Source: Stigmatella ashevillena (GTDB taxonomy: Bacteria; Myxococcota; Myxococcia; Myxococcales; Myxococcaceae). Taken from it: 64,000 bases of DNA. Below the pieces are notes generated by a model, which had not been told where the DNA came from, did no database searches, and saw only the letters and a list, made by a program, of their open reading frames with translations. How positions within the stretch are numbered: position 1 is the stretch's first letter; every line of letters starts with the position of its first letter. This document shows positions 23,213-27,577 of this stretch, in pieces. The position numbers and the translations under genes were made by a program. The DNA lies in NCBI RefSeq assembly GCF_028368975.1, contig NZ_JAQNDM010000002.1, forward strand, positions 4,210,425 to 4,274,424, given 5' to 3'.

Positions 23213-24976
23213 ATGAATACACACCGCCCTCTCTTGCTTCTCCCACTCTTGTTGTCCTTCTTGCTCCTACCCACCGCCTGTGGGGACGACACCCCTGGTG
23301 CAAAAACCCCTGCCGACGCGGGAATCCCAGACGACGCCGGGGTCCCCGACGCAGGAGGGCCCGGCGGGGACGACGCAGGTGACGCAGGTGACGCAGGCGA
23401 GCCCGGCGACGCAGGCGACGCAGGCGATGCGGGCGAGCCCAGTGACGCAGGCGACGCGGGCGATGGGGGAGGAACGGATGGAGGCCCCCCGGCCGATCCC
23501 GCCGAGCCGCTGTTCTCGGGCAATCACATCTCTCGCTTCGAAATCAATCTCTCCCAGGAGGCACTCGCCGCCCTCAAGGCCGATCCAGACGAATATGTGG
23601 AGGGTGCGCTCCACCTCCAGATCGGCGTGCAATCCATCGATCTGCCCAAGGTCGGCGTGCGCCTCAAGGGCCAGCTCGGCTCCTTCCGTCCGCTCAACCA
23701 GAAGGCCGCCTTCGTGCTCAAGTTCGACAAGTTCGCCGATCAGAACCTGTTCGGACTGAAGAAGCTGACCCTCAACAACATGGTGCAGGACCCGAGCATG
23801 ATTCATGAGCGGCTCGGCTACGCCCTCTTCCGGGCGATGGAGGTCCCCGCCCCCCGGGCAGCCCACGCGACGATCCGCATCAACGGCGCGCTGTATGGCC
23901 TCTACACCGCGCTCGAGTCGACCGACAACTCCGTCTTCCTGAAGCGCTGGTTTGGAAGCAACAACGGCAACCTGTACGAGGGCCAGTACGGCAGCGATCT
24001 CTATCTCGGGATGGAGGCCACCTTCGAGCAGGACAAGGGCGAGGACGTCGGCTTCGCCGATCTGACCGAGCTCGCGAAGGCGCTCGACCAGATGACCGAC
24101 CCGGCCACGTTCCTGGAGGAGGTGGCCCAGGTCATCGACATCGACAGCTACCTGCGCTTCGCGGCCACGGAGTTGTTCATCGGCCACTGGGACGGCTACG
24201 TCTCCTACCGGAACAACTTCTACCTCTACCGCCGGCCCTCCGACGAGCGGTGGGTCTTCATCCCGTGGGGCATCGACCAGACCTTTGGCCGGTACATCGA
24301 CACGTGGTCGGCCCATGGGCGGATTCAGCGGATGTGCACCGCATCGCTGCCCTGCCGCTACAAGCTGGCCCAGGCCTACGAGCAGGTGCTCCTGCGCGTC
24401 GCGGACCTCTCGATGGTGGATCAGGCCATGTCGTTGGGCACCTTCCTTTGGACAGACGTCCAGGAGGACCCCCGCAAGGAGGTGGATGTGGGGACGGTGT
24501 TCAGCAAGATGACCGAGGCCATCGACTTCCTGAAGAACCGGCCCACCGACGTCCGCTTGCGGCTCGGGTGCGTCGACCCTGCCAACTGCGAGCGGTGCAC
24601 CCTGGCCCCGGCGCCGAATGGAGGCCAGTTGGCGTTCTGCACGGAGACGGTGACCTGGGCGGCGGCCGAAGCCGACTGCGTGACCCAAGGCGGACACCTG
24701 GTCTCCATTCATGATCAGGCCACCCAGACCGCCGTCCGCGCGGGCGCACGCGCGCTGTCGATTGGCCCGTGGTGGGTGGGGCTGAGCGACGAGGCCGAGG
24801 AGGGAACCTTCGCCTGGAGTGATAAGACCTCCATCAACTTCACCCTGTGGGCCACCAGCGAGCCCAACAACCAGAACAACGAGGACTGCGTGCAGCTGTA
24901 CGGAGAGGCGGGCACCTGGAACGACGTGACCTGCGCTGGCACGGCCAGCTACGTGTGCACCCTGCCCCCTCCCTGA
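23213..24976 (+). CDS. CotH-kinase-domain lipoprotein fused to a C-type lectin domain
   Basis: A 587-residue lipoprotein: hydrophobic leader with lipobox PTAC (Cys near 23), then an Asp-Ala-Gly repeat spacer (about 36-90). A CotH-like domain spans about 100-450: LKADPDEYVEG, VGVRLKGQLGSFR, a segment with LNNMVQDPSMIHERLGY, LYGLYTALES, and the kinase-type metal residues in GHWDGYVSYRNNFYLY and IPWGIDQTFG. The C terminus (about 465-586) is a C-type lectin fold: WAAAEADC, WWVGLSDEAEEGTFAW, EPNNQNNEDC and WNDVTC. CotH phosphorylates spore-coat protein CotB in Bacillus. Here a sugar-binding module would place a kinase on a polysaccharide surface. ATG 23213 follows an in-frame TTG at 23210. Confidence 0.8.
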   Translation: MNTHRPLLLLPLLLSFLLLPTACGDDTPGAKTPADAGIPDDAGVPDAGGPGGDDAGDAGDAGEPGDAGDAGDAGEPSDAGDAGDGGGTDGGPPADPAEPLFSGNHISRFEINLSQEALAALKADPDEYVEGALHLQIGVQSIDLPKVGVRLKGQLGSFRPLNQKAAFVLKFDKFADQNLFGLKKLTLNNMVQDPSMIHERLGYALFRAMEVPAPRAAHATIRINGALYGLYTALESTDNSVFLKRWFGSNNGNLYEGQYGSDLYLGMEATFEQDKGEDVGFADLTELAKALDQMTDPATFLEEVAQVIDIDSYLRFAATELFIGHWDGYVSYRNNFYLYRRPSDERWVFIPWGIDQTFGRYIDTWSAHGRIQRMCTASLPCRYKLAQAYEQVLLRVADLSMVDQAMSLGTFLWTDVQEDPRKEVDVGTVFSKMTEAIDFLKNRPTDVRLRLGCVDPANCERCTLAPAPNGGQLAFCTETVTWAAAEADCVTQGGHLVSIHDQATQTAVRAGARALSIGPWWVGLSDEAEEGTFAWSDKTSINFTLWATSEPNNQNNEDCVQLYGEAGTWNDVTCAGTASYVCTLPPP

Positions 24977-26068: not shown

Positions 26069-27577
26069 GTGCAACCTCGTGGAATCCTTCCTCCCCGCTC
26101 TTTCCGAAACCTCCTCTCCCTCTCGCTAACGCTCGCTTCGAGCTGGGTGCTGGCCTGTGGCCCCGCTCCCGAGGACGGCGGGCCCCTCACGGCCCAGTCG
26201 GCCTCGACCCTCGCCTCCGCCACGCCGCAGCCCACCGCCGTCACCGAGCTCGTCGCCAACGGCACCTTCGCGAGCGGCGCAGTCGCCCCCTGGTGGAACA
26301 ATGCCAACACCCAGGTGCGCGTGGAGAACGGCCGCCTGCGCATCGACGTCGCCGCGGGCACCGCCAATCTGTGGGACGCCATCGTCGGTGAGAGCGGCAT
26401 TCCCCTGGTGAGCGGCAAGGCATACACGCTGTCCTTCTCGGCCTCGGCCTCGGCCAGCATCTCCGTGCGCACGACGGTGCAGCAGGAAACCGCGCCCTAC
26501 ACGGCGGTGCTGACCCAGCAGTTCTCCATCGACGGCACCTCCCGGAGGTTCTCGTTCCCGTTCACCTCCTCCCTGGGCACCTCTCAGGGCCAGGTCACCT
26601 TCCAGGTCGGAGGCCGTCCCGCGGCCGCCACCGTCTTCCTCGATGACATCTCCCTGACCACGGAGAGCACGGGCACGGGCGGAGGCTCGGGCCCCATCGG
26701 CATGACCAGCGGCTTCTACGTGGACCCGAATACCGGGGCCGCGGGCTGGGTGCGCTCGAATGGCGGAGACTCGCGCGCCTCGCGCATCCAATCGTCCATC
26801 GCGAGCAAGCCGGGGGCGCGCTGGTTCGGCAACTGGAGCGGGGACATCGGCTCGGCGGTGTCGAGCTACGTCGCCGCGGCCGATGCCGCCGACAAGCTCC
26901 CGGTGCTGGTGGCCTACAACATCCCCGGCCGCGACTGCGGCAGCCACTCGGGCGGCGGAGCGGGAAGCCCCGACGCCTACCGGACGTGGATCGCCGCGTT
27001 CGCGGCGGCGATCGGCAACCGTCCCGCCATCGTCATCATCGAGCCGGATGCGGTGGCCCAGCTCGACTGCCTGGCGAATGACTCCGAGCGGCAGGTGCGC
27101 CTGGGCCTGCTGCGCTACGCCACCGAGCAACTGCGCGACCGAGCCACGAACACGTGGACGTACCTCGACGGCGGGAACGCCCAATGGATTGCCGCCGACA
27201 CGATGGCACAGCGGCTCGACTCCGCCGGGGTGAAGAACATCCGGGGCTTCGCGCTCAACGTGTCGAACTTCTACACCACGGCCCAGTCGAATCCGTATGG
27301 CGCGTCGGTCAACAGCGCGCTGTCCAGCCGGTACGGCTACACGCGGCAATTCCTCGTGGACACCAGCCGCAACGGCAACGGCTCCAACGGCGAGTGGTGC
27401 AATCCCGGCGGCCGCAAGCTGGGCACCACCTCCCAGGTGGGGACCGGCACGGGGGCCGAGTTGCTGCTGTGGGTGAAGTCTGTCGGCGAGTCAGACGGCA
27501 ACTGCGGCATCGCCCCGGGGGCTGCCGCCGGGCAGTTCAGCCCGGACCTGGCGATCCGGCTAATCGACGGCACGTGA
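26069..27577 (+). CDS. glycoside hydrolase family 6 cellulase lipoprotein with CBM
   Basis: A 502-residue surface lipoprotein: leader ending in VLAC (Cys30). Residues about 55-195 form a CBM4/9-like beta-sandwich (NGTFASGAVAPWWNN, LSFSASASASISVRT, VFLDDISL). A Gly-rich linker leads to the GH6 domain (about 210-500): GFYVDPNTGAAGWV, VLVAYNIPGRDCG (catalytic Asp in RDC), AIVIIEPDAVAQLDC, and the C-terminal EWCNPGGRKLG. The family cleaves beta-1,4-glucan with inversion. GTG start with AAAGGA 8 bases before it. Lipid anchoring would keep the enzyme on the cell, fitting contact-dependent feeding or matrix turnover. Confidence 0.88.
   Translation: MQPRGILPPRSFRNLLSLSLTLASSWVLACGPAPEDGGPLTAQSASTLASATPQPTAVTELVANGTFASGAVAPWWNNANTQVRVENGRLRIDVAAGTANLWDAIVGESGIPLVSGKAYTLSFSASASASISVRTTVQQETAPYTAVLTQQFSIDGTSRRFSFPFTSSLGTSQGQVTFQVGGRPAAATVFLDDISLTTESTGTGGGSGPIGMTSGFYVDPNTGAAGWVRSNGGDSRASRIQSSIASKPGARWFGNWSGDIGSAVSSYVAAADAADKLPVLVAYNIPGRDCGSHSGGGAGSPDAYRTWIAAFAAAIGNRPAIVIIEPDAVAQLDCLANDSERQVRLGLLRYATEQLRDRATNTWTYLDGGNAQWIAADTMAQRLDSAGVKNIRGFALNVSNFYTTAQSNPYGASVNSALSSRYGYTRQFLVDTSRNGNGSNGEWCNPGGRKLGTTSQVGTGTGAELLLWVKSVGESDGNCGIAPGAAAGQFSPDLAIRLIDGT

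Follow-up and report, generated by a model that had tools for sequence, protein, structure and literature searches.

A predicted lipoprotein of Stigmatella ashevillena joining a CotH fold with an altered active-site pocket to a C-type lectin domain

The window analysed here, a 64,000-nucleotide stretch of the Stigmatella ashevillena genome, contains a gene whose product belongs, on sequence and predicted structure, to the CotH fold family but should not be classified among the active CotH protein kinases. Our preferred reading, which we hold tentatively, is that the protein is extracellular and directed by its lectin, and that the pocket of its CotH fold has been rebuilt and is possibly still catalytic. 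The protein is probably not a spore-coat protein kinase that uses Mg-ATP, as in Bacillus, and may instead be a relative of the kinases that has taken on a new function. The positions of its domains and of the residues discussed below are given in Table 1.

The open reading frame runs on the forward strand from an ATG at 23213 to a stop at 24976 and encodes 587 residues. The Pfam CotH profile (PF08757) matched residues 149–369 (E 8.4e-44; 150.8 bits against a gathering cut-off of 23.8), spanning only positions 1–226 of the 322 in the profile, and the Lectin_C profile (PF00059) matched residues 479–583 (E 1.8e-19; 70.9 bits against a cut-off of 22.6). A phmmer search aligned residues 175–363 with the B. 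cereus CotH structure 5jd9 (E 2e-16) and also matched many C-type lectins. Given these domain E-values and the orthologs with the same two domains, chance is excluded, and a chance join of CotH and lectin was ruled out as well, the fusions of the window type forming an 11-row clade with support of 100/100. At the N-terminus, a hydrophobic signal is followed by Cys23 (LLPTAC-GDD), with an equivalent cysteine in most related fusions, and position −3 is a proline, which is a departure from the classic lipobox. The lipid anchor proposed in the initial annotation is favored by the signal and the presumed anchor cysteine and weakened by the proline. The spacer that follows contains 11 copies of DAG within residues 1–95, with Asp, Ala and Gly making up 76% of residues 32–94.

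Table 1 Features of the CotH-lectin gene and a nearby gene (window coordinates)
Feature	Position	Strand	Basis
CotH-fold / C-type lectin lipoprotein gene (predicted), 587 aa	23213..24976	+	ORF, translation, Pfam
Signal peptide, last residue presumed lipid-anchor Cys23 (LLPTAC)	23213..23281	+	sequence; equivalent Cys in most related fusions
Low-complexity Asp/Ala/Gly spacer (DAG repeats)	23282..23494	+	11 DAG, 76% D/A/G
CotH protein-kinase-like domain, residues 95-455	23495..24577	+	Pfam CotH; 5jd9 Z 38.4
RLKG motif with Lys152, a position usually Arg in other CotH	23660..23671	+	alignment
Glu256, at the position of adenine-stacking Tyr142 (B. cereus CotH); mostly Lys/Arg in non-clade CotH	23978..23980	+	alignment; PMC12189002
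Asp327, PKA D166 / B. subtilis CotH D228 equivalent	24191..24193	+	alignment
Asn335, PKA N171 equivalent	24215..24217	+	alignment
Trp352, adenine-stacking Trp245 equivalent (B. cereus CotH)	24266..24268	+	alignment; PMC12189002
Gly353, at D184/D251 metal-binding Asp position of canonical CotH	24269..24271	+	alignment
Asp355, fixed in Gly-type clade (45/46); candidate replacement metal ligand	24275..24277	+	alignment
Cys-rich linker and C-type lectin domain, residues 456-587	24578..24973	+	Pfam Lectin_C; collectin-11, langerin CRD structural matches
EPN motif (Ca2+ / mannose-type sugar site)	24860..24868	+	sequence; lectin alignment
WND motif (Ca2+ ligands)	24917..24925	+	sequence; lectin alignment
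Secreted GH6 + CBM4/9 protein, adjoins folD	26069-27577		Pfam

An AlphaFold2 model of residues 95–587, built on a 63-row alignment, had a mean pLDDT of 94.2 and a pTM of 0.89. Foldseek placed 5jd9 and 5jda at the top (E 6e-24), and VIA-align superposed the CotH domain on 5jd9 with Z 38.4 (334 of 358 residues aligned, rmsd 2.3, 23% identity), the whole of 5jd9 aligning with model residues 11–361 (protein residues 105–455). Since the model aligns with all of 5jd9, the CotH fold is predicted to be complete despite the partial Pfam coverage. The lectin domain was closest to the carbohydrate-recognition domains (CRDs) of collectin-11 (Z 19.8) and langerin (Z 19.2), and it resembles the C-type lectin CRDs in general (collectin-11, langerin, mannose receptor family; PF00059) in fold (Z 18–20), in its EPN and WND motifs and in its cysteine pattern, but differs from them in being bacterial and in following a CotH fold at the C-terminus of a predicted lipoprotein. 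Sequence and model together describe a predicted secreted protein whose lipoprotein-type signal is followed by a flexible acidic spacer, the complete CotH fold and, at the C-terminus, the lectin. The initial annotation had named a CotH domain, a C-type lectin with EPN and WND motifs and a DAG-repeat spacer, all of which were borne out, and the structural comparison with CotH that it called for gave a match across the whole domain.

Active-site positions were mapped by alignment to 5jd9. A 2025 review (PMC12189002) describes CotH as having residues that match PKA D166, N171 and D184, with the putative DFG motif absent, and as sandwiching adenine between Tyr142 and Trp245, and for B. subtilis CotH both D228Q and D251A are reported to be inactive (PMC7821199). 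In the 5jd9 chain, Trp245 is the W of PWDYD, with Asp246 next to it. Asp223, in FDGF, precedes Asp246 by 23 residues, a spacing equal to that between D228 and D251 of B. subtilis CotH, and Asn228 of 5jd9 also falls in the expected place. The same Asp-Asp spacing was seen in an Alicyclobacillus CotH, the only one found when Bacillus CotH was sought on plasmids. From this spacing we infer the correspondence of the B. subtilis D228/D251 numbering to the 5jd9 residues.

Compared with Bacillus CotH (PF08757; 5jd9/5jda), the window protein has the same fold across the whole domain and keeps the D228-like Asp327, the N171-like Asn335 and the Trp245-like Trp352, but it has a glycine, Gly353, where the D251/D184-like aspartate would stand, and within the adenine-stacking pair Glu256 replaces Tyr142. 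It further differs in being a predicted secreted lipoprotein with a lectin, and cotB- or cotG-like neighbours were not seen. An annotation or frame error as the source of Gly353 was ruled out, as the orthologs carry the glycine too. The other six CotH genes of the host genome all have an aspartate at this position. The catalytic aspartates, which the initial annotation had named as the feature to look for in an alignment, are thus present only in part, the D166-like one being in place and the D184/D251-like one, overlooked there, being a glycine, and activity as a CotH kinase is not supported.

To place this substitution within the family, residues 327, 353 and 355 (window protein numbering) were surveyed in 138 distinct CotH domains and 5jd9. 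The combination D/G/D occurred 44 times, D/D/D 34 times, gap/D/N 29 times, D/D/N 25 times and D/D/T twice, with D/S/D, D/G/N and E/D/D once each and two incompletely readable. A 135-row tree was built with these three columns masked and with the two-CotH rows L144, L145, L149 and L150 left out. Residue 353 was Gly in 45 of the rows and Ser in one, all in one clade, and Asp in the other 89; these 46 Gly-type rows were mostly chosen by similarity to the window protein, and 46 of 135 should not be read as their share among all CotH. They lay on one side of a branch with an SH-aLRT of 99. In a 103-row tree, from which eight active-site columns, nine long rows and 23 of the 29 rows of the gap/D/N clade were removed, the Gly-type clade had support of 100/99 and was present in 200 of 200 bootstrap trees.

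Within the Gly-type clade, D327 and N335 were present in 46 of 46 rows, D355 and K152 in 45 each and E256 in 43, at a median pairwise identity of 30%. Residue 355 in the 89 rows outside the clade, where 353 is Asp, was Asp in 35, Asn in 52 and Thr in two, indicating that it is free to vary where the aspartate at 353 is kept. Among the 60 non-clade rows keeping residue 327, residue 256 was Lys in 47 and Arg in two, residue 152 was Arg in 41, and residue 355 was Asp in 35, Asn in 23 and Thr in two; the 29 rows lacking 327 always had Arg at 256 and 152 and Asn at 355. Of the 60 rows that lie outside the clade and have Asp or Glu at 327 with Asp at 353, two had tyrosine at the 256 position. Conservation of K152, E256, D327, N335 and D355 at 30% identity argues against plain decay, though it is no proof of catalysis. 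Read from the aligned residues, the Gly-type clade is a coordinated, conserved change of the pocket, in which the change to glycine is a single event on the tree and the covariation of 353 and 355 reduces to one independent pair.

The Gly-type residue was not found in the Bacteroidota CotH loci surveyed, and the CotH literature, in the part covered, gave no account of a Gly-type branch or of a CotH-lectin fusion. Small actinobacterial metagenome-assembled genomes (MAGs; 1.2–1.3 Mb; L016, L018, L019 and others) carried three to four CotH genes each, several of them Gly-type, and the two-CotH rows left out of the tree are long reading frames with tandem CotH domains, which came from the phylum sample taken around one such actinobacterial MAG. 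The 29 rows with a gap at the D228-like aspartate, a WDLNN type, form one clade that includes L001, L002, L003 and L005 of the host genome; this type was the commonest CotH among the strongest Pfam matches in the genomes of the host family, and its lesion is the reverse of that in the window protein, with the D251-like aspartate kept and the D228-like one missing.

In the lectin of the window protein, the sequence and a 17-domain alignment revealed the full EPN, ED and WND set, which we take to be the Ca2+ and sugar ligands of C-type lectins, and the Ca2+/EPN sugar site looks intact. Both EPN and WND were kept in 15 of the 17 lectin domains from 15 fusion proteins, the exceptions being the third lectin of L015, without either motif, and L033, in which the match ends short of WND. 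To these 15 CotH and lectin fusions a further one, L158, was added later. Four proteins with CotH, Cu-binding_MopE and Lectin_C domains (L010, L015, L033 and L035) resemble the window protein in having a Gly-type CotH followed by a lectin, but differ in a MopE-type metal motif that joins the two and that the window protein, with only a short Cys-rich linker there, has either lost or never had; the 11-row clade to which the window gene belongs includes none of L015, L033 and L035. Pairwise dN/dS values (NG86) against five orthologs were 0.11–0.41 for the CotH part and 0.15–0.53 for the lectin part, indicating that both are under purifying selection. The sole other Lectin_C match in the host genome is a short one (EPN...WND) in the 542-residue L009 (G000:C2:2985418-2985549).

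A full-length ortholog was found in six of 96 genomes of the host family and in four of seven in the host genus, and the fusion of Sorangium cellulosum So0157-2 has 50% identity to the window protein. In a phylum sample of 195 genomes, 51 matches were obtained at E <= 1e-30, nine of which carried a lectin, one per genome in nine genomes. The lectin label requires at least three changes on the tree. The lectin fusion is thus old and patchy, occurring in the six family genomes, in Sorangium and in other Myxococcota, and this patchy distribution is a poor fit with a core spore-coat role, as had been proposed in the initial annotation.

The neighbourhood of the gene lends that proposal no support either. 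A divergent MarR gene lies upstream and a convergent folD downstream, followed by the GH6 + CBM4/9 gene and an AbrB-like permease (the permease name is our own reading), and this block is kept in three other genomes of the host genus (G036, G037 and G038). None of the MarR, folD, GH6 and permease neighbours was shared in G032 and G033, from another genus, or at L010–L014, so the CotH-lectin gene looks like a single-gene unit. In two genus members without the gene (G039 and G041), the MarR relatives were sited in other contexts. Ser/Lys-rich frames resembling CotB or CotG were sought in the window and none was convincing, the best being a 151-residue frame with 44% Ser and Lys over 50 residues.

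In the reading that we tentatively prefer, the protein would be located on the outer surface, where its lectin would hold Ca2+-dependent sugars of the matrix, of the cell itself or of a prey surface, and this binding would keep the CotH domain on a glycan-bound substrate. The CotH domain would most likely still bind a phosphorylated ligand and transfer a group from it, with Asp355 holding the metal in place of the aspartate lost at 353 and with donor specificity altered through the E256 pocket, although Glu256 need not contact the donor. The export of the protein, its sorting to the outer membrane and its binding of sugar are all putative. A broader proposal, more speculative and in our view rather unlikely as a whole, is that a CotH branch of Myxococcota and actinobacterial MAGs has shifted its metal-binding acid by two residues (Gly353/Asp355), rebuilt its donor pocket (Lys152, Glu256) and taken up a new extracellular transfer on glycans or glycan-bound proteins, aimed by a lectin in some lineages.

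A pseudokinase or adhesin, in which the CotH fold would have lost catalysis and would give a surface lectin a module for binding or scaffolding, is an alternative that we rate almost as likely. Pseudokinases are usually recognized by loss of the DFG-type aspartate, and CotH3 of the Mucorales, a surface ligand, provides a precedent. No ATP supply is known to us outside the outer membrane, and the extracellular setting counts against a pocket that is still catalytic, as does Gly353 at the D184/D251 position, where the B. subtilis D251A variant is reported to be inactive. The glutamate at the adenine-stacking tyrosine position is consistent with this alternative as well, but that position is Lys or Arg in most other CotH too, and a scaffold would have no need of the D166- and N171-like residues, D355 and K152, which the clade has kept at such low identity.

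Two explanations remain. The protein could serve in predation or nutrient capture, the lectin binding a prey or plant polysaccharide that CotH modifies or docks, with the GH6 gene as partner; the EPN type of the lectin and the retention of the GH6 gene, next after folD, in the three related genomes would suit this, but the block is not retained outside the genus and folD is a housekeeping gene in the opposite orientation, and we consider the explanation unlikely. Very unlikely is a conventional CotH protein kinase that acts on proteins of the spore coat or matrix, with the lectin as its targeting module. Although the 5jd9 fold is shared and the D228-like Asp and Trp245-like Trp are kept, the tested defining feature, the D251-like Asp, is missing here and retained by the host genome's six other CotH genes, orthologs are few in the family, the gene also occurs in Sorangium and in MAGs, some of them from lakes, and a CotB/CotG-like neighbour was not found in the window.

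Many 'CotH kinase' labels in myxobacteria rest on the family name alone. If the Gly-type branch is inactive, this label is misleading for it, and if the branch is active without the DFG-type aspartate, it would show a new way for a kinase fold to transfer phosphate, one that is extracellular and aimed by a sugar-binding domain.
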